Shown one piece after another: positions 5,599 through 20,096 of a stretch of DNA of 38,061 nt. The notes beneath the pieces are model-generated. The model was not told the origin of the DNA and made no database searches. It worked only from the letters and a program-made list of their open reading frames with translations. The stretch is from Candidatus Woesearchaeota archaeon. GTDB lineage: Archaea > Nanobdellota > Nanobdellia > Woesearchaeales > DSVV01. Positions within the stretch are counted from its first letter, which is position 1, and the number at the start of each line of letters is the position of its first letter. The stretch is taken from positions 1 to 38,061 of the forward strand of contig JAGVYW010000040.1 in NCBI GenBank assembly GCA_018303075.1, given 5' to 3'. The position numbers were made by a program, and so were the translations under genes.

Positions 5599-6207
5599 AT
5601 GGTTCAAGAAACTGTATTTGGCAATGTTATTCAATTCTTAGAAAGACTTGGAGTGTATGATGTAATACTACCATTTATCCTTGTATTTACAATTGTGTTT
5701 GCGATATTTGAAAAAACAAAAATATTTGGTACAGAAGATGTTGAAGGAGTAAAAACTGCAAAAAAAAATCTTAATGCAATGATTGCATTTGTTATTGCAT
5801 TTTTAGTAATAGCTTCAGCACAGCTTGTAGCAATTATTAATAAATCACTGGCAAATATTGTTTTATTACTGCTGATTTCAGTCTGCTTTTTACTATTGAT
5901 TGGATCTTTCTTTTCTGAGAAAGAAGAAGTAAAATTAATTGGAGGATGGAGAACATTTTTTATGATTGTAATGCTTATTGGTGTTGTACTTATATTTTTA
6001 GCAGCTATAACAACTAGCTCTGGAAAAAGCTGGCTGCAAGTGATTATTGATTCTGTTGTCAATAACTTTGATTCAACTGCAGTCAGTTCAATCGTGTTAT
6101 TAATTGTCGTGCTAATATTTATGATGTATATTGTTCGTGAACCAAAACATAGCCATGTTGGAAAAAGTGGACATGGCGAAGACAATAACGACAAAGAACA
6201 TCATTAA
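5599..6207 (+). CDS. Polytopic membrane protein with His-rich tail, paralogue 1 of 3
   Basis: A 202-residue protein with about five hydrophobic segments (roughly 19-37, 57-78, 82-106, 117-140 and 165-186). The C-terminal tail is hydrophilic and His-rich (SHVGKSGHGE...DKEHH). The N-terminal stretch FLERLGVYDVILPFILVF aligns by eye with FLDNYGLSDVIIPFLLVF in the next gene, so the two are paralogues. I recognise no named domain. Similar sequences seem to occur in DPANN genomes as hypothetical proteins, but that is recollection and was not searched. It heads a same-strand run with two related genes and is probably leaderless. Confidence 0.8.
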   Translation: MVQETVFGNVIQFLERLGVYDVILPFILVFTIVFAIFEKTKIFGTEDVEGVKTAKKNLNAMIAFVIAFLVIASAQLVAIINKSLANIVLLLLISVCFLLLIGSFFSEKEEVKLIGGWRTFFMIVMLIGVVLIFLAAITTSSGKSWLQVIIDSVVNNFDSTAVSSIVLLIVVLIFMMYIVREPKHSHVGKSGHGEDNNDKEHH

Positions 6208-6241
6208 TATAAAAAGATTAAATATCTAATAAATACCTAAA

Positions 6242-6253
6242 GATTTATATACA
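6242..6253 (+). promoter_or_regulatory. TATA box for the second membrane-protein gene
   Basis: GATTTATATACA lies 66-77 nt before the ATG at 6319, so it predicts a leader of about 45 nt. This is one of the few genes in the window with a clear leader, and the leader contains the SD at 6306-6313. Confidence 0.5.
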
Positions 6254-6305
6254 AGTAAATAGTAAAAAGTTGATATTTATTATTTGAATATAAATTTATT
6301 AAAAA

Positions 6306-6313
6306 GGAGGGTG
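6306..6313 (+). promoter_or_regulatory. Strong Shine-Dalgarno GGAGGGTG
   Basis: GGAGGGTG ends 5 nt before the ATG at 6319 and matches the archaeal anti-SD (AUCACCUCC) in all but one position. It suggests high or separately controlled translation of the second membrane protein. Confidence 0.7.
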
Positions 6314-6318
6314 TAATT

Positions 6319-6930
6319 ATGCCATTATATGCAGGTGGTAGAGCACAGGATTTATTATACTTTTTAGACAACTATGGTTTGAGTGATGTTATAATCCCAT
6401 TCTTATTAGTATTCTTAATTGTATTTGCGGCATTGCAAAAAACACATATTCTAGGCAAGGATAGAAAACAGTTTAATGTTGCATTATCATTATTACTTGG
6501 TTTAATGGTTGTATTACCTCATGTATTTGGAAAATATCCGCCAAATGCTGATGTTGTTACTATTATGAACAGTGCAATACCAAATGTTTCTATTGTTGCA
6601 GTTGCTATTGTTATGTTATTGTTACTATTAGGAATTTTTGGTGTTGGACCTGATTGGGCAAGTGGAGGAGCATTTTCAAGTTTTATCGCAATTGCTGCAT
6701 TTGGTGCAATAATCTATTTTTTTGGAGCAGCAGCTGGATGGTGGCAAAATATTACCATTTCATGGTGGGGTTCTGATACTACGTCAATAATTATAATCAT
6801 ATTAGTCTTTGGACTGATTATTGGTTATATTACTAAAGATGAAACATCTGCAACAAAAGCAAGTGCATTTAGCAATGTGATGCAAGATGTCAGAAAATTC
6901 TTTGGTGGCGGCGGTGGAGGTCATCATTAG
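6319..6930 (+). CDS. Polytopic membrane protein with Gly6-His2 tail, paralogue 2 of 3
   Basis: A 203-residue protein with about five membrane segments (roughly 19-40, 52-70, 87-113, 118-142 and 155-175). A short cytoplasmic-like stretch follows, then a tail of six glycines and two histidines. It is a paralogue of the gene at 5599: both begin with an amphipathic segment, then [IL]PF[IL]LVF and a K-T-x-I-[FL]-G turn after the first membrane helix. The start is fixed by the strong SD. The next gene begins directly after its stop codon, so the two are surely co-transcribed. Function unknown. Confidence 0.82.
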   Translation: MPLYAGGRAQDLLYFLDNYGLSDVIIPFLLVFLIVFAALQKTHILGKDRKQFNVALSLLLGLMVVLPHVFGKYPPNADVVTIMNSAIPNVSIVAVAIVMLLLLLGIFGVGPDWASGGAFSSFIAIAAFGAIIYFFGAAAGWWQNITISWWGSDTTSIIIIILVFGLIIGYITKDETSATKASAFSNVMQDVRKFFGGGGGGHH

Positions 6931-7563
6931 ATGGCAACGCCTGCAATTGATATAAGTTTACTTGCAAGATTCTCTCCTGTATTTATATTTCTATTATGTT
7001 TAGTACTTGTTTATGCATTATTAGCACATACAAAACCAGTAGGTGACCAAAAATTAATTTATGCATTGGTTGCATTAGGCATATCTATAGGTGTTGTATT
7101 ATCTCCACCAATTATGCGAATGATTGAATTTATGGCACCATGGTTTACAGTGTTATTTATTTTTATGATATTTGGAATTATTGCATATAAGATATTTGGT
7201 GCAACTGATGCAGACATCCATACTGTCATAAAAGAATATGGCGGATTGCAATGGACAATTGCAATTATTGGCATACTTATTGCATTAGGTGCATTATCTG
7301 CTGCATTTGGACAGCAAAGTCTTGAAGGAACCGATGGAACAGCAACAGATACAGGAGATACTATTACTTTTGAAGGAGATGATGGAAATTATGCAGCAGG
7401 AACTGATTCACCTAATTTTAAAAGCAATCTAGAACGAACATTTTATCATCCAAAAACATTAGGAATCTTGTTTGTTCTTGTTCTATCTGCTTTAACAATA
7501 AGTTTATTAACTGGAAAAATGACACCTAGTTTTGGCTCTGGGGGAGGAGGACATGGGCATTAA
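6931..7563 (+). CDS. Polytopic membrane protein with Gly/His tail, paralogue 3 of 3
   Basis: A 210-residue protein with about five hydrophobic segments (roughly 13-32, 41-58, 66-90, 108-130 and 178-198). A polar, acidic Thr/Asp/Gly loop at about 133-170 is probably extracytoplasmic. The tail GSGGGGHGH echoes those of the two preceding proteins. The ATG abuts the upstream stop with no spacer. The only SD candidate (GGAGGT, 6915-6920) lies inside the Gly-His tail codons of the preceding gene. It is more diverged than the first two but has the same size, layout and tail. Function unknown. Confidence 0.82.
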   Translation: MATPAIDISLLARFSPVFIFLLCLVLVYALLAHTKPVGDQKLIYALVALGISIGVVLSPPIMRMIEFMAPWFTVLFIFMIFGIIAYKIFGATDADIHTVIKEYGGLQWTIAIIGILIALGALSAAFGQQSLEGTDGTATDTGDTITFEGDDGNYAAGTDSPNFKSNLERTFYHPKTLGILFVLVLSALTISLLTGKMTPSFGSGGGGHGH

Positions 7564-7633
7564 CTATGGTCTGGGAACCTGGCTCAGTGTTATGTGATTC
7601 GCTCTTGTCGTTCAATCTACAGAATTTCGATTT

Positions 7634-8392
7634 CTACTTTGTCTTCAAATCACGTGTAATCCTTGATAATTCATTTACATTCTCTGTCATCACTGGCAAG
7701 ACTTTAGAGAATACTTTGTCCATTGCTTTAATCTCTGCTGCAATATTTGATAAGTTTTGATCGTATTGACCTATTTTACCTAGAACACCTGTATGCAAGG
7801 TTGTGAAATCTTTTTTCATGTCTTCAATCTCTTGCTCTACTTTTGTTACTCTACTTTCAACACGATCTTTCCATTCAATAATCTTATTGATGCTTCGTAC
7901 AATCTCATTCCATTTTTCATCAATTATTGCTTCTGCTAATTCTTCCATTCGTTCAAGTTCCGGTGATTTTCCTCCAGGATAACTTGGACCTCCAGAATAT
8001 CCACCATCTTGTGCAAAAGATTGCGGTGAATTAGGTACATCGCCTAATCTTGGACCAATAGGAGGAGCTTCTCCAAATGGATCTCCTTGTGAAACTGACG
8101 GAGCCATTTCAGTATTCATTGATTGTAATTGTTGTGCCATTGGTGGTGCCTCTTTTTGCATTGACATATGGTCTGTGTTTAGTTCAACAGTACCTTTAAT
8201 ATCAGCTTGATTCATTGCGTCAAAAATTTGTGTTGATTCATAATCATTCCTTTGCAATAATTGTATAATCTGATTATTACTCAATCCTTGCTGACGCATT
8301 GCTATTACTCTGTCAACAGGAACTCCTTGAGGAGAACCATGATGTGCATGATCTCCATGATCATCGTTTTTTCCAAATCCAAAAAGTCCCAT
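7634..8392 (-). CDS. Coiled-coil protein with His-rich N terminus and UBA-like helical motif
   Basis: A 252-residue soluble protein in four parts. The N terminus is His/Asp/Gly-rich (DDHGDHAHHG, about 10-19). A short helical motif follows at about 25-65 (VIAMRQQGLSNNQIIQLLQR then QIFDAMNQADI), resembling UBA/CUE-like three-helix units. A Pro/Gly/Gln-rich linker spans about 80-145, and a long coiled coil runs from about 150 to the end. No signal peptide or membrane helix is seen. It converges on the three membrane proteins and shares their histidine theme. A TATA box (AAGTTTTATATAAC, minus strand, about 8424-8437) suggests a leader of about 12 nt. The coiled coil loosely recalls archaellum accessory proteins FlaC/D/E, but this is not a firm match. 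Confidence 0.75.
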   Translation of the reverse strand: MGLFGFGKNDDHGDHAHHGSPQGVPVDRVIAMRQQGLSNNQIIQLLQRNDYESTQIFDAMNQADIKGTVELNTDHMSMQKEAPPMAQQLQSMNTEMAPSVSQGDPFGEAPPIGPRLGDVPNSPQSFAQDGGYSGGPSYPGGKSPELERMEELAEAIIDEKWNEIVRSINKIIEWKDRVESRVTKVEQEIEDMKKDFTTLHTGVLGKIGQYDQNLSNIAAEIKAMDKVFSKVLPVMTENVNELSRITRDLKTK

Positions 8393-8440
8393 ATAACTTC
8401 ACTTTCAACTATAGAGCTGTGTTGTTATATAAAACTTTCT

Positions 8441-8473
8441 AAATTATTTTAAAGCTTTGCTTTAAAATAATTT
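8441..8473. terminator. Perfect 15-bp stem, 3-nt loop
   Basis: AAATTATTTTAAAGC and GCTTTAAAATAATTT are perfect complements around TTT. It sits downstream of the 8581-9027 gene and just upstream of the promoter of the 7634-8392 gene, both on the minus strand. It could be a terminator for the first, a regulator of the second, or a small mobile remnant. Confidence 0.5.
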
Positions 8474-8550
8474 AGTAATCTGTGTAACCAGTGAATACTA
8501 GTTATCATTAACCATAACTAACATTAATTACATTTAGTATCCTTATTGTT

Positions 8551-8589
8551 AAACAATAAAAAGCGAATGAAGTGAGTTTTTTATTGTTT
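8551..8589 (-). terminator. Hairpin overlapping the stop of the coiled-coil gene
   Basis: AAACAATAAAAA pairs perfectly with TTTTTATTGTTT (8578-8589) around a 15-nt loop. The right arm includes the stop codon of the 8581-9027 gene. The left arm alone can also fold as TTATTGTT/AACAATAA (8543-8559), so two alternative stems exist. Confidence 0.4.
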
Positions 8590-9027
8590 TTTATCATGCA
8601 TTGCGTTTTCTAATGCTCTTTTGACAATTATATCAACATCCCTTTGTGTGACAAAATTTAACGGTTCCCATAAATTAATATATTTATCTAACATCTCTAC
8701 ATCTTCTTTTTTAGCAGTTGCTTTTAATTCTGAGATTATAAGTTTCATTTCATCTTTTATCTCAGATAATTGTGATTTTAGCTCTGAAACTTCATCTGTC
8801 AATAACTTTACGCTTTCATGCACATCTTTGTTTGTTTTTAGAGCATTTTGCTCTGTTACCTGCAAAATCTTTCTAAGACTAGAATAACGCTCTTCTATAA
8901 CACGCATCCTGCCTGATGTATCTCTGACAACTTCAGAAACTTCCTGCAAATCAGTAGAGAAATCACGCTTTTTTGGCTGCATTGATTGCATCTGCTGCTG
9001 CATTTGAAAATCTGTTGGATCTGCCAT
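8581..9027 (-). CDS. Small coiled-coil protein of unknown function
   Basis: A 148-residue, strongly helical protein. A Gln/Met-rich N terminus is followed by a continuous coiled coil from about 25 to 110 (LQEVSEVVRDTSGRMRVIEE, then LTDEVSELKSQLSEIKDEMK). A distinct C-terminal segment (YINLWEPLNFVTQRDVDIIV) looks conserved rather than coiled. No membrane segment is present. It is transcribed in the same direction as the His-rich coiled-coil gene, 188 bp upstream of it with two hairpins between, so the two are probably separate units. A TATA-like CATTTATTATC near 9053 fits a leaderless start. FlaC/D/E-like archaellum accessory proteins are an alternative I cannot support by motif. Confidence 0.75.
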   Translation of the reverse strand: MADPTDFQMQQQMQSMQPKKRDFSTDLQEVSEVVRDTSGRMRVIEERYSSLRKILQVTEQNALKTNKDVHESVKLLTDEVSELKSQLSEIKDEMKLIISELKATAKKEDVEMLDKYINLWEPLNFVTQRDVDIIVKRALENAMHDKKQ

Positions 9028-9743: not shown

Positions 9744-9777
9744 AGAGAACTTTGCAAAGAATTTTGCAAAGTTCTCT
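9744..9777 (-). terminator. Perfect 15-bp hairpin at the end of the 497-residue protein gene
   Basis: AGAGAACTTTGCAAA pairs perfectly with TTTGCAAAGTTCTCT around a GAAT loop. Its right arm touches the stop codon of the gene at 9777-11270. Part of it (AAGAATTTTGCAAA) recurs at two other gene ends in the window. Confidence 0.6.
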
Positions 9778-11270
9778 TAAGAACATTGAATATTCTGAAG
9801 TTCTGGTGGATAATCACCAAGATCTTTAAAGAAGATTGATTTCTTCTGCGTGTCGATTATTAAAATGAATTTAATTCCTTCGTACTCGAATGTTGTTTCT
9901 TTTCCGTCAGTGAATGGGAAAGATTTTTTTTCTTGTGAAACATATTTTGTTTCTTGTTCATTAATCTTTACATATTTATTAACATTAAAGTTAAACTGAA
10001 ATTCAATTGCACCTTGATCCTTCTGTAATGATTTCCAATTAAGTATCTTAACAACATATAATTTATCCAGACTCCCATCAGAGATTACAAAGTAACTATC
10101 TCGGCATGCATCAAATGTAACTTTTTCTTCTTCAGTCTTTTTCTCTTGATAGATACAAGTATCACCTTCAATATAATATTCTTTTTTTACTATCCCAAAA
10201 TTATATGTTTTATAACAAAATAGATCTGTTTTTGCTTTACATATCTGTTTGTATCCATAACATATCTCAGATTCATCACAGTTGATTATTTTATAAGAGG
10301 TGAAATCAGAAGTCGAAGATTTATTGTTATCACAAAAATTCTCATTTAAACCACCACCAAAAAAAATAAAAGTACCAAGAGAACCATAACAATCATCTGC
10401 GAAATCACCATGAATATCACTATCAACACAATTTGCTTTTCCTGTGCATCTTCCATCTTCACATTTTTCATAACCTTTTTTAATACAATCATATTGCTCT
10501 TCTTTGTAACCATTTATTGTACATGCTTGTTCGTATAATATATTCTCTTTGCAATAATCGTCAATTGGCATTTTTTCTTTTTTGTCATTGTTATCAACTT
10601 CGACTGTTGCAAAACCTTTAGTCTCATAATTTAATCCATCTGAATCTTTGCAGAATTGCTGATTAGGACAAGGTTTGCATGATTCTCCGCCGCAGTCAAC
10701 TGCTAGTTCATCGCTATCTTTTACTTTATTATCACAGCTTGGCTGAGTGTTGCATTTTCCAAATTGTTGGCTACAACCATAATCACACTTTACAACTGAA
10801 TATAATTTTTCACTAATCTTGTAAAGTGATTTTGGAACGTAATTGTCACAGCTATATTCAATTAAATATTGAAAATCTTTGCAGTTATCAGAAAGTGTTG
10901 TTGTTATAAATTTTGAAGTTGATTTTTTATCAACCCATTGAGTTTGCTTAACTAGCTCTTGAAAAGTTATCTTTCCATGTATAAATGGCTGAAATCCTGT
11001 TGGAACAATGCCAATATTATCTGTCTCTTTACAAGATGGAGATGTTTGAGTAGAACTCTGCTTTATGTTCTTAATGCTATACATATCTATCTCTTTCATC
11101 TTTGCGGAAGCTTTATATGCTTGGCCAACAAATGAAGAATAACTGTTTGTATTCTGTGTAGTTGCAGTAAATGAGTCAAATGAAATTCCAAAAAAGATGA
11201 TTACTATAATTAAAGAAATGATGATTGTCCACTTTATTATTTTGTTTTTGTTTTTTTTGTTAGGTGTCAT
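9777..11270 (-). CDS. Cys-rich membrane-anchored surface protein (smaller paralogue)
   Basis: A 497-residue protein. A basic N terminus leads into one membrane helix (about 12-30), then a short linker ending FVGQAY (about 47-52), which could be a signal peptidase site (G at -3, A at -1) or a sorting motif. The middle has Cys-rich units: a C...LIEYSC...C-x-x-G-C...C unit, a DCGG-x-x-C-x-x-C element, and units starting C-x-DSD (CKDSDGLNY, CVDSDIHGD). The C-terminal 130 residues are beta-rich and Cys-poor. The likely location is outside the membrane, where the cysteines would form disulfides; DSD clusters might bind calcium. It follows its larger paralogue by 34 bp with GAGG as SD, so the pair is an operon. 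Function unknown. Confidence 0.8.
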   Translation of the reverse strand: MTPNKKNKNKIIKWTIIISLIIVIIFFGISFDSFTATTQNTNSYSSFVGQAYKASAKMKEIDMYSIKNIKQSSTQTSPSCKETDNIGIVPTGFQPFIHGKITFQELVKQTQWVDKKSTSKFITTTLSDNCKDFQYLIEYSCDNYVPKSLYKISEKLYSVVKCDYGCSQQFGKCNTQPSCDNKVKDSDELAVDCGGESCKPCPNQQFCKDSDGLNYETKGFATVEVDNNDKKEKMPIDDYCKENILYEQACTINGYKEEQYDCIKKGYEKCEDGRCTGKANCVDSDIHGDFADDCYGSLGTFIFFGGGLNENFCDNNKSSTSDFTSYKIINCDESEICYGYKQICKAKTDLFCYKTYNFGIVKKEYYIEGDTCIYQEKKTEEEKVTFDACRDSYFVISDGSLDKLYVVKILNWKSLQKDQGAIEFQFNFNVNKYVKINEQETKYVSQEKKSFPFTDGKETTFEYEGIKFILIIDTQKKSIFFKDLGDYPPELQNIQCS

Positions 11271-11304: not shown

Positions 11305-13350
11305 TCAGTATTCAAAACATTTGCCTTCAAAACAGCCGTTTTCACATTTTTTGTATATAGGAATTCCGTTATCTTTGCATGTCCACTCTTTTACAAAAGT
11401 GTTGTCTGAGGCTAAACATTCATCTTCCATAATCTCTTTTTTTGGAGGATTTCCTTTATGAATTATCTCTATAAAACCCTTGGTATAAATATCATCTTTG
11501 TCACTGTCAATGCATTCTGCAAGCGGATCTTTTATTACAACATCAAAATCACATTTTCCTGCTTTGCACTTGCCTGGACAATGAACCAATTCATATGTTA
11601 CATAGATAGAATCTGAGATTAATTCTGCATCTTGATATGCATAATCCAAATTCTTTGCTCCACATTTATATTCTTTTAACAGATTGCTTTCAATACAAAT
11701 GTCATTGAATGTTTTTAGGATTGGCTGAGAATTCTCAAATCCTATTCCAGCAGCAGAACCTGTTACATATTCTGGGTTTGGCTCTTTTGCATCTGTATCT
11801 AGGCAAGTTAATTCTTTACATTCTCCCTGTAAACATGCTTGCCCATGCGGACAACTAAACCATTGCGATTGTACTGTTGTTCCGTCGCAATAATATTCTT
11901 TAACAATATCACCATAATTGCCATCTTGAGATTCTATTTTCTTGCCTAATCCTGCATTACAATTATAACCATTATCGGTAATGTCAATAATTGATTCATC
12001 TGCAATTGATTCATCTGTTGAACCAGCTAAACAATATGTAACACCACAACTATCTTGTTTATAGACTGATGGATTGCTTGACAAACATATTTTTGGAGAT
12101 TGTGTTATTGATTTCTTGAAAATGTTTTTTCCAGCGTTTGTATCTGCATCACCATCTACACATTTTATTTGATTTGAACAGCATGCACCATTTGCACAAC
12201 CATCAAATAGATCATATCCATATACTTCTTTTGGACAATCAAATTGCTTATAACTTGGGGTATTTCCATTACAGTATGCTTCATTAACTGTATCATCACC
12301 AATACAATCGTCTTGTAATGGACCTGATGTGATTATCTCTTGCGAGTTTTTCTGTTCTGCTGAACCAGGAATTGAATATTTTGTATCATAACTGTATAAA
12401 TCAATTCCTAAAATAGAATCTTCGACTGTTAATACAGGAGCATATGCATCTGAATCAATACATGTTTTTTTATCACAGAATGCACCATCTTCTGTTTCTA
12501 AACAACCATCACTGCAAAACTTAAACTCTGTTGCATCTCCTTCTGTTGTGCAATATTTTTCTTTTAAAATATCACCATTGCAAGAATCAGGTATTTTCTT
12601 TCCTTGAGAGATTACATATCCTGCAACTGCAAAATTAATGCCTTTATTTTTGTTTTCATCTCCAGATAAGTCTTTATCAGAATCATATGAACAATCTTGT
12701 TTTTCGGAACATAATGGACAAGAACCACCACAATCAATACTTTGCTCATCTTGATTCTGAATGCCGTCATTACAGCTGCCATATTGCTGTTCAGTTTCTG
12801 TATAACAACGAGCTTGTTTTCCATTACATCCATATTTGCAAGTAATTGCATCAAAAATATTTAGAGATTTACTCTTTGATTGTAAATAATTATCACAAGA
12901 ATATTCAATTAAGTATTTATTATCCTTACAGCTATCTGTTGCTGTGTAACACTCTTGTGTTTTTGGGTCATAATATAGAATTGTACCTTGTTTTGTTTCA
13001 TCCTTTTCCGCATCAAAATTATCAACACAATTTTGCTTAATTTTACAGGATGCATACTCCTCTTCAGAGTACCATGATATTTGTGCATTGCCAGAACCTG
13101 GTTTGCTTGCAGCCAATCTTTTTGGCTGTGATTTTCTCTTTGCTGTTTCATATGTTTTTTCTTTATATTCAGCACTAAATCTAGAAATATCCTCTGGTGA
13201 GAATTTTGTTTCTATCTGATACTGGCGAAAAGCCTGACCAACATAATCTTTTGTTTGTACTAACATAACTATTGTAAAGATTATTAATAGAAAAAGTACA
13301 GCAATTAAGATAACATATGTATAATTCTTTCCCAACATGCTCTTTTTCAT
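11305..13350 (-). CDS. Cys-rich membrane-anchored surface protein with about six repeats
   Basis: A 681-residue protein with one N-terminal membrane helix (about 11-31) followed by DYVGQAF. The rest is about six diverged repeats. A typical unit opens C-x-D-[ST]-D, then has D-x-C, then [LV]-x-E-x-x-C and closes with C-x-x-G-x-C-x-x-G-x-C (for example CPHGQACLQGEC and CENGCFEGKC). A DCGG-x-C-x-x-C element sits between units one and two, as in the paralogue downstream. It is first in the two-gene operon. A TATA box (AATATATAAACA, about 13390-13401) predicts a leader of about 18 nt holding AAAAAGGGG. It is probably displayed on the cell surface; ligand or partner unknown. Confidence 0.82.
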   Translation of the reverse strand: MKKSMLGKNYTYVILIAVLFLLIIFTIVMLVQTKDYVGQAFRQYQIETKFSPEDISRFSAEYKEKTYETAKRKSQPKRLAASKPGSGNAQISWYSEEEYASCKIKQNCVDNFDAEKDETKQGTILYYDPKTQECYTATDSCKDNKYLIEYSCDNYLQSKSKSLNIFDAITCKYGCNGKQARCYTETEQQYGSCNDGIQNQDEQSIDCGGSCPLCSEKQDCSYDSDKDLSGDENKNKGINFAVAGYVISQGKKIPDSCNGDILKEKYCTTEGDATEFKFCSDGCLETEDGAFCDKKTCIDSDAYAPVLTVEDSILGIDLYSYDTKYSIPGSAEQKNSQEIITSGPLQDDCIGDDTVNEAYCNGNTPSYKQFDCPKEVYGYDLFDGCANGACCSNQIKCVDGDADTNAGKNIFKKSITQSPKICLSSNPSVYKQDSCGVTYCLAGSTDESIADESIIDITDNGYNCNAGLGKKIESQDGNYGDIVKEYYCDGTTVQSQWFSCPHGQACLQGECKELTCLDTDAKEPNPEYVTGSAAGIGFENSQPILKTFNDICIESNLLKEYKCGAKNLDYAYQDAELISDSIYVTYELVHCPGKCKAGKCDFDVVIKDPLAECIDSDKDDIYTKGFIEIIHKGNPPKKEIMEDECLASDNTFVKEWTCKDNGIPIYKKCENGCFEGKCFEY

Positions 13351-17491: not shown

Positions 17492-18544
17492 ATGACAACA
17501 AATCTTAATATACTAATTGAAAACTACCATCATCTGATAAAGATGAAAAAAATTAATATGTTGTTGATTGTAATATTCTCTTTGATTATTATAATCGGAA
17601 TGGTAATTGTATCTTCTTTATATTTATCGAATGAATCAAGCCAACCAATTACTGGCCAAGCTATTCTTAAGGATGATGTAAAAGTAAAAATAGGTTATCG
17701 TGAACATTTACTTTATCTTCCTGCTTATGTTGCACAGAAAAATAATTATTATGCTGAAGAAGGGTTAGAAGCAGAATTAATTAATTTTGATTCTACAAAC
17801 CAATTAGTTGAAGCTGTTTTATCAGGAAATGTTGATGCTGCAATAGGTGGGGTGAATGCTGTAGTTCCACTAACAATTGAAGGTAAAACTCCAGGATTAT
17901 TAAGAATCTTCAATTTAGGTATTCTTACTGATGACTTTGATGCATTAGTTGTTGCAAAAAACTCTAATATCAAAACAATTCAAGATTTAGAGGGAAAAAT
18001 AATCTCTTCATTGCCTGGAACAGCAGCAAAGATCTGGATGGATAGGATGCTAGATCAAGAAAAACTTAATGGAAAAATAACTATTATCCAAACTGCTGAT
18101 TCTCAGCAACTCAATGCTTTAGTTTCAGGAAGTGTTGATGCTATTTTTGTTTTGGAGCCTTTAGCAACAATCGCTGAAGAAAAAAATATTGGCAGAATAT
18201 TAATAAAAAGTCCAATTTCAAAATATTTTAGAACAGATTTACTATTTGAAACTAGTATTATGTCTAATGATTTTATCAATAAGAATCCAACAACAGCAAA
18301 GAAAATAATAAGAGCAATTGATAAAGCAATAGTTTTTATTAACAATAATCCTGATTTAGTAAGAACTTATTATTCAGAATTTACTCCTGTAGAAGAAGAT
18401 TCATTTGAAAATAAACTTCCTGTTTCACGTTATATCCCTTCATATGAGATGGATATTAACAAATTCCAAGAAACTACTAATTTATTTGCCACTTCTGGTT
18501 TGATTGAAGAAGAGGTTAATGTTTCAAAGATTTTGATACAATAA
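17492..18544 (+). CDS. ABC transporter substrate-binding protein, SsuA/NMT1 family
   Basis: A 350-residue exported binding protein. The membrane helix is at about 23-45, followed by ITGQAI and then the mature fold starting KVKIGYREHLLYLPAYVAQ. The family features VEAVLSGNVDAAIGGVNA and VSGSVDAIFVLEPLATIAEE are clear. Members bind sulfonates, taurine, nitrate, riboflavin or pyrimidine precursors; the ligand here cannot be told. The ATG at 17492 fits the palindromic TATA box. A second ATG at 17543 gives a more typical signal peptide (MKKINMLLIVIF), so the start is uncertain. First gene of the transporter operon. Confidence 0.92.
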   Translation: MTTNLNILIENYHHLIKMKKINMLLIVIFSLIIIIGMVIVSSLYLSNESSQPITGQAILKDDVKVKIGYREHLLYLPAYVAQKNNYYAEEGLEAELINFDSTNQLVEAVLSGNVDAAIGGVNAVVPLTIEGKTPGLLRIFNLGILTDDFDALVVAKNSNIKTIQDLEGKIISSLPGTAAKIWMDRMLDQEKLNGKITIIQTADSQQLNALVSGSVDAIFVLEPLATIAEEKNIGRILIKSPISKYFRTDLLFETSIMSNDFINKNPTTAKKIIRAIDKAIVFINNNPDLVRTYYSEFTPVEEDSFENKLPVSRYIPSYEMDINKFQETTNLFATSGLIEEEVNVSKILIQ

Positions 18545-18556
18545 TGAGGCTATCAA

Positions 18557-19288
18557 ATGACATTTCTTACTGTTTCTGAGCTGAATAAAGAGTATCCTAA
18601 CGTTCATGTCTTGGATAAAATCTGCTTTGAGATTCAAAGAGGAGAATTTGTCTCAGTTTTTGGACCAAATGGCTGCGGAAAAACAACACTTCTAAATATC
18701 CTCTCGGGAATGGACAATAGTTATACAGGTTCTGTAAAATTTACTGATAATAGTATAAGAAAAGCATTCATCTTCCAGAATTCAAACGATTCTATACTGC
18801 CATGGAAAAATGTACTTGATAATCTTAGATTAGATAATCAAAATATAGATGAGAGCAGGATTAAAGATGTTTTGGATGAATTAAAATTATCGAACTTCAA
18901 GAACAGATTTCCTTATCAACTATCTGGGGGGATGAAACAGCTTCTTGCAATTGCGAGATCATTTGTTTTTGAGTGTGATATCATATTTTTGGATGAACCT
19001 TTTTCTTCTCTTGACTATAATATGGCTCAAACTGTAAGAGAAAAATTTTTAGGATTATGGCAAAAAGATAAACCTACGATATTTTTTGTTTCCCATGATA
19101 TTAAGGAAACAATATTACTCTCGGACAAAATCATCTTACTAAGCAAAAGACCTGCCAAGATCAAAAAAATCATTGAGATAGAATTACCTAGACCTAGAGA
19201 CAGCACAATATTAACATCTAAAAAATTTTTAGAATATGAAAAAATGATTCTATATGAGGTTGAAAATGAAAATAAGATTGAAGATTAA
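18557..19288 (+). CDS. ABC transporter ATPase, SsuB/TauB-like
   Basis: A 243-residue ATPase with Walker A (GPNGCGKTT, about 35-43), Q-loop (FQNSND), signature (LSGGMKQ), Walker B (IIFLDEPF) and the switch histidine in FFVSHDIKET, all intact. It starts 12 nt after the binding-protein stop with GAGG as SD, and overlaps the permease gene. It powers uptake through the permease encoded next. Confidence 0.95.
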   Translation: MTFLTVSELNKEYPNVHVLDKICFEIQRGEFVSVFGPNGCGKTTLLNILSGMDNSYTGSVKFTDNSIRKAFIFQNSNDSILPWKNVLDNLRLDNQNIDESRIKDVLDELKLSNFKNRFPYQLSGGMKQLLAIARSFVFECDIIFLDEPFSSLDYNMAQTVREKFLGLWQKDKPTIFFVSHDIKETILLSDKIILLSKRPAKIKKIIEIELPRPRDSTILTSKKFLEYEKMILYEVENENKIED

Positions 19289-20096
19289 ATATGATTTATT
19301 AAAAGATTACATAGTACCTATTTCAATATTTTTGGCAGCTCTGCTTATTTATTATCTCGGAATCTTTAATAAACTCATGTTTCCAAATCCTTTTAGTATC
19401 ATTAAACAATTTTTTGTGCTAATGATATCAAAAGAGATGTATTCTGAAATTTTCCTAACTCTAAACAGAGTAATTTTAGGAACAATAATCAGCATATTAA
19501 TTGGAGTGCCATTTGGTTTAGTCTTGGGTTATTTCACCAAATTATATGATATGTTTGAATTTATTATTGATTTTTCCAGATCTATACCTGCAACAGCTCT
19601 TTTTCCTCTCTTTATGCTATTCTTCGGTATAGGTAATACTTCAAAGATTATGCTAGGAGCATGGATTGCTACATTGGTGATTATAGTCAATACCTCTTAT
19701 GGGGTAAGACATGCTAACAAAGTATATTTGAAGATGGCTAAAGTTTACAAAACTTCAAAAATGTATATTCTCTTACATATTGTCTTTCCAGGAGCTTTAC
19801 CTAATATTTTCTCTGGTCTAAGAATAGGAGTCTCATTAGTGTTGATTGTTGTCATAGTAACAGAGATGTTTATTGGTTCTGTCGATGGATTAGGACAATC
19901 GATTCTTAATGCCCAGCTTACTTATAATATCCCTAAAATGTATGCTCTGATTATCATTACTGGGATGCTTGGATATTTGTTAAATATATTATTTCTGACT
20001 TTAGAAAGAAGAATAATTCATTGGACAGAAAATAATAATAAGAATAATAATGATGATAAGAATAATGAAGATGATGATAACAACAATAAAAATTAA
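19266..20096 (+). CDS. ABC transporter permease, SsuC/TauC-like, with Asn/Asp/Lys tail
   Basis: A 276-residue permease with about six membrane helices. The BPD_transp_1 coupling loop is seen as the region from KMYILLHIVFPGALPNIFSG, matching the EAA motif that docks on the ATPase. An in-frame ATG lies at 19254, but GAGGT (19257-19261) is a good SD for the ATG at 19266, so that start is preferred; the gene overlaps the ATPase by 23 nt. The last 23 residues are a run of Asn, Asp, Lys and Glu encoded by AAT/GAT-type triplets, unlike the family, and look like microsatellite expansion. The gene ends one base from the convergent aMBF1 gene. Confidence 0.92.
   Translation: MKIRLKIKYDLLKDYIVPISIFLAALLIYYLGIFNKLMFPNPFSIIKQFFVLMISKEMYSEIFLTLNRVILGTIISILIGVPFGLVLGYFTKLYDMFEFIIDFSRSIPATALFPLFMLFFGIGNTSKIMLGAWIATLVIIVNTSYGVRHANKVYLKMAKVYKTSKMYILLHIVFPGALPNIFSGLRIGVSLVLIVVIVTEMFIGSVDGLGQSILNAQLTYNIPKMYALIIITGMLGYLLNILFLTLERRIIHWTENNNKNNNDDKNNEDDDNNNKN
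20035..20093 (+). repeat. AAT/GAT-rich trinucleotide tract
   Basis: Imperfect runs of AAT, GAT and AAC triplets encode the polar C-terminal tail of the permease. The purity suggests slippage. Confidence 0.6.

Follow-up and report, generated by a model that had tools for sequence, protein, structure and literature searches.

The five genes between positions 5599 and 9027 of the window, a stretch of 38,061 nucleotides from a 1.24 Mb, 95%-complete Woesearchaeota genome, probably encode the membrane scaffold of a conserved type IV filament-like machine, together with its cytosolic coiled-coil part, in DPANN archaea of the Nanoarchaeota phylum. The best reading of the locus is a pilin-less type IV filament-like locus that has been partly described already, and the block very probably builds part of a machine that works at the cell surface or in secretion. 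The new element is a near-universal, unnamed membrane triplet without a Pfam, NCBIfam or PDB-fold match. The DPANN archaea of this phylum, tiny and mostly symbiotic, are presumed to depend on contact with other cells, and we know of no machine to which this contact has been assigned. The seven-gene block, i.e., the five genes together with those of a secretion ATPase and a platform protein, is a prime candidate for it, its membrane and coiled-coil parts being found in about 95% of the sampled genomes, down to 0.5 Mb. It offers concrete proteins to tag, delete, and image, among them three membrane proteins without a family name, and gives a context to widespread "hypothetical" families.

The membrane triplet and the coiled-coil proteins

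An open reading frame check recovered all five genes of 5599–9027. The forward strand carries the triplet of five-TM proteins: P1 (5599..6207, 202 aa), which comes first, contains the motif DVILPFILVFTIVFAIFEKTKIFG and ends in the tail HSHVGKSGHGEDNNDKEHH (6148–6204); P2 (6319..6930, 203 aa), with a predicted cytosolic helix at residues 181–196 and the tail GGGGGGHH (6904–6927); and P3 (6931..7563, 210 aa), which abuts P2 and ends in GGGGHGH (7540–7560). The reverse strand carries two soluble coiled-coil proteins, P4 (7634..8392, 252 aa), convergent to the triplet and with the N-terminus MGLFGFGKNDDHGDHAHHG, and P5 (8581..9027, 148 aa). The main features of the original prediction, namely three tandem five-helix membrane proteins with Gly/His tails, a His-rich P4 N-terminus, and coiled-coil genes facing the triplet, are all real in the window. 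Five hydrophobic segments were found in each of P1, P2, and P3, with an extra weak N-terminal one in P3.

Judged by sequence comparison, the three membrane proteins are paralogues. P1 and P2, already taken as clear paralogues, share 30% identity (E 5e-12), and P3 can be added as a distant third member, by profile only. Profile comparison gave E-values of 1e-36 for P1–P2, 3e-18 for P3–P2, and 3e-19 for P3–P1; such values call for caution in membrane proteins, but the motif PFllvFtivFAiLqkTKilG...kNlNa common to the triplet and the tandem position agree with them. Lys and Arg are concentrated in loop 1–2 and at the C-terminus (positive-inside), so that the N-termini are predicted to lie outside and the C-termini in the cytoplasm, clearly for P1 and P2 and more weakly for P3.

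No family above the cut-off was found for P1 in Pfam or NCBIfam. The AlphaFold model of P2, of modest confidence (pLDDT 77.6, pTM 0.51), had no PDB fold match in Foldseek at E<=0.001, nor did the model of P4. Ideas of GPCR, FliP/FliQ, or UBA-like folds were set aside. All Pfam and NCBIfam matches of the five proteins, among them DUF6541, MprF, laminin, SMC, and GldL, fell far below the cut-off and are attributable to hydrophobic or coiled-coil composition; a Cytophagales match (L008) was put down to chance.

Structure prediction divides P4 into a His-rich disordered N-terminus (about 8339–8365), a conserved three-helix domain (residues 26–71, 8180–8317), a disordered Pro-rich linker, and a single 108-residue helix (residues 144–251, 7640–7963). 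Coiled coils are present in P4 and P5, and neither signal nor TM segments were found in them. P5 has the conserved C-terminal motif AKKEDV..L.KY..LW.P.NFVT..EV, for which no support as a link to ArlD/E was found. The families PF05377 and PF04659 of the archaellum accessory proteins ArlC/D/E are absent from the 25 most-matched Pfam families of 49 P5 and 51 P4 members.

Conserved gene order and the linked secretion genes

P1/P2-type proteins occur in 356 of the 371 phylum genomes (237/243 good genomes) and P4 in 351 of the 371, while P2 was found in 185/193 genomes of the order; the near-universality of P1/P2 relatives extends down to genomes of 0.5 Mb. Gene order was read around the matches in about 80 Woesearchaeales genomes and in 20 that belong to other families of the class. 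The same order, P1, P2, and P3 on one strand, P4 and P5 on the other, and then the ATPase and the platform on the strand of the triplet, recurs in dozens of families; it was seen in the majority of the Woesearchaeales loci read and also in further orders of the class. Within the stretches fetched for 80 loci, many of which end at contig ends, P4 was present in 68, P5 in 53, the ATPase in 52, and the platform in 39. The triplet lies on a single strand in all 76 loci with all three genes, with a median gap of 5 bases between P2 and P3, and P4 is on the opposite strand in 64/67. Where P4 and P5 are both present (53 loci), they are linked and share a strand in 52. The arrangement is more than chance, since it recurs in most of the phylum. 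The proposed check of gene order across genomes therefore came out in favor of linkage: the order is maintained across the class and the coiled-coil genes stay with the membrane genes. The idea that triplet and coiled-coil proteins form a single functional unit is supported by this conservation and by the predicted placement of the C-tails and the coiled-coil proteins on the same, cytoplasmic side.

The ATPase linked to the block in relatives matches Pfam T2SSE (E 1.2e-14) and, among PDB structures, archaeal GspE (2oap, E 7e-30), CpaF (E 1e-25), and FlaI (E 2e-17); Walker A is found in 52/52 locus ATPases. By these sequence matches it belongs to the type II/IV secretion ATPases of the GspE/CpaF/FlaI type. 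The platform is assigned more weakly as a putative diverged T2SSF/TadC-like protein: only 7/33 members match Pfam T2SSF at E<=0.1, most being too diverged to reach Pfam, several frames of 706–759 aa give full-domain T2SSF matches (E ~1e-4), and hhalign to the source genome's own T2SSF protein gave E 2e-5 with a probability of 77%. P1–P3 as platform fragments were ruled out (hhalign E 0.35).

In the source genome, the ATPase and the platform lie together on contig C29, away from the five genes, and the pair is also non-adjacent to the block in some relatives (L042, L043, L051, L060, L161, L162, and L174). This unlinked state would suit a separate membrane complex, serving for example division, polarity, or coiled-coil envelope anchoring, that is merely a stable neighbor of the ATPase and platform genes, as would the divergent and convergent orientations, which imply that there is no single operon. 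Such a complex is nevertheless improbable: many families and several orders keep the block linked to the ATPase, beyond the neutral synteny expected in shuffled genomes whose other neighbors (translin, aspartyl-tRNA synthetase, and others) vary freely from one genome to the next.

Several observations concern the ATPase genes themselves. An intein (Intein_splicing E 1e-26, LAGLIDADG_3 E 3e-13) splits the source-genome ATPase (G000 contig C29, L065:6548–10390, +) directly after the Walker B-like motif, and 4/52 ATPases of the order exceed 900 aa and may also carry inteins. A further gene of about 445 aa, encoding a HerA/DUF87-type ATPase, occurs in eight loci, at the P4/P5 position in six (L048, L054, L055, L058, L075, and L089) and nearby in two (L069 and L119). 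Another contig of the source genome (G000 contig C36, L066:7722–9644, +) encodes a further pair of T2SSF platform proteins, a canonical one, and about 7.6 kb upstream of it reads N.

The prepilin peptidase (PF01478) is nearly general, being present in 39/40 genomes of the order, the source genome included. Nine of the 40 are devoid of a canonical T2SSF platform, and all nine keep the peptidase; eight of these nine have a T2SSE ATPase above the cut-off, in five cases (G008, G013, G027, G032, and G035) on the contig of the five-gene locus. The joint presence of peptidase and ATPase in these genomes suggests that the locus likely handles subunits processed by the prepilin peptidase. No pilin or pseudopilin was recognized among the ORFs of 60 aa or more in the locus neighborhoods, which leaves some room for a pilin-independent secretion or membrane-remodeling machine. 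There, the triplet would act as pore or gate and a repurposed type IV pilus-type ATPase and platform would export unfolded or folded proteins without pilin polymerization. The triplet's lack of a known fold, its near-universality even in genomes of 0.5 Mb, and the occasional insertion of a HerA-like ATPase gene into the locus are compatible with such a machine. We consider it rather unlikely, given that none of the nine genomes devoid of a canonical platform lacks the peptidase, which points to the production of pilin-like substrates.

Histidine-rich ends

The Gly/His tails and the His-rich P4 N-terminus had been read as a sign that membrane and soluble parts meet through a metal. His ends are indeed present in all four proteins, P1 to P4, of the window and of a near-identical relative (L007), the two being entered separately in the counts that follow. 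Moreover, tails of the HH/GH type occur in 22/237 triplet proteins versus 1/827 other ORFs, and they co-occur in more genomes than expected (P1/P2 6 vs 1.3, P1/P3 4 vs 0.6, and P2/P3 4 vs 0.5; hypergeometric p ~1e-4, uncorrected for relatedness). An assembly in which a common metal is chelated by the triplet tails and the His-rich P4 N-terminus, joining the membrane and soluble parts, would account for these observations. It is however highly improbable, as the ends are confined to a minority of orthologues: two or more His fall within the C-terminal 25 residues in 12/80 P1, 10/81 P2, and 5/79 P3 proteins, and three or more within the N-terminal 40 residues in 3/69 P4 proteins. On the tree, the tails require at least 10 (P1), 9 (P2), and 4 (P3) changes; they are replaced by Lys/Glu-rich ends in orthologues and are almost absent in other orders. 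Because they are missing in most orthologues, an outcome that the original prediction had itself named as counting against it, a metal link is unsupported as the core mechanism, and as a general mechanism it is refuted.

The companion suggestion, that the tails are placed near one another, fared better in part. The co-occurrence among the paralogues is in its favor, and independent pairs on the tree agree in direction on concerted tails, but these events are too few for significance. We read the His-rich ends as a lineage-specific change, arising repeatedly, in cytosolic tails that are close to one another; they are a variable ornament and not the core of the machine.

Comparison with known systems and a proposed mechanism

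Two type IV pilus-like loci of cluster-2 DPANN are described in the main text of Hamm et al. 2024 (PMC11291902). Their Locus 2, reported in Woesearchaeota, Pacearchaeota, Nanoarchaeota, and other DPANN, consists of CpaF, TadC, and two coiled-coil proteins and has no pilin. The same set, a CpaF-type ATPase, a TadC-type platform, and two coiled-coil proteins without PilA/FlaF, is seen in the gene order of the relatives studied here, whereas the window itself holds the coiled-coil part alone. The five-gene block with its ATPase and platform is thus very probably Locus 2. The original prediction, which knew no named system with this layout, is to be amended for the neighborhood and holds for the triplet, which is still unnamed and finds no mention in the main text of that paper. 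P4 and P5 were compared by description with the Locus 2 coiled-coil proteins NAR1_03220 and NAR1_01690 of Ca. Nanohaloarchaeum antarcticus. That paper compares the latter with viral attachment proteins; for P4 and P5, which have no export signal, a cytosolic location is predicted instead. Weak Nup88/TPR coiled-coil matches fit the "nucleopore domain" note of the same paper, yet they are at chance level.

The archaellum motor (ArlI, ArlJ, ArlCDE/ArlX) is alike in its GspE-family ATPase, platform protein, and cytosolic scaffold proteins, ArlX/ArlCDE being presumed to surround the motor as a cytosolic scaffold (PMC8978795). It differs in that archaellins, ArlF/G, and ArlH were not recognized in the locus, which has the membrane triplet in addition; no homology of P4/P5 to ArlX/ArlCDE was detected. 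Makarova et al. 2016 (PMC4858521) noted nanoarchaeal type IV pilus ATPases without identifiable cognate pilins, as well as coiled-coil intracellular proteins in some archaeal loci. The T2SSE ATPase, the TadC platform, and a prepilin peptidase elsewhere in the genome are common ground with these systems. In contrast, no pilin genes were recognized in the present locus, its platform of 700–760 aa is strongly diverged, and the triplet is unlike any component described there. A 2019 dark-matter survey (PMC6393860) likewise pictured DPANN type IV pilus islands with unrecognizable components.

On the reading preferred here, we infer the contacts, the ring or scaffold roles, the substrate, and the use of the machine as follows. 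P1, P2, and P3 would form a hetero-oligomer in the membrane with their N-termini outside and their C-tails in the cytoplasm. P4, with its small helical domain, flexible linker, and long coiled coil, would together with P5 make up a cytosolic scaffold holding the ATPase, presumably a hexamer, beneath the platform, analogous to ArlX/ArlCDE at the archaellum motor. ATP hydrolysis could then power the insertion or extrusion of subunits that resemble pilins, are processed by the prepilin peptidase, and are encoded elsewhere, yielding a surface filament or a secretion pseudopilus for host attachment or secretion. More tentatively, the triplet could be an undescribed hetero-oligomeric gate, stator, or ring, a core and near-universal part of a DPANN-specific machine derived from type IV filaments, which in some genomes is apparently the sole machine of this kind and might serve as the interaction apparatus of these symbionts.

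Two further gene groups in the window deserve mention. At 9777–11270 and 11305–13350 (reverse strand) lie genes for two large proteins rich in Cys, in which a TM segment at the N-terminus is combined with repeated CxDSD-type motifs; they have no Pfam match, and related genes come after the same block in L007. At 17492–20096 (forward strand), genes for an NMT1/THI5-like substrate-binding protein, an ABC ATPase, and a permease follow in a row, i.e., a small-molecule importer.
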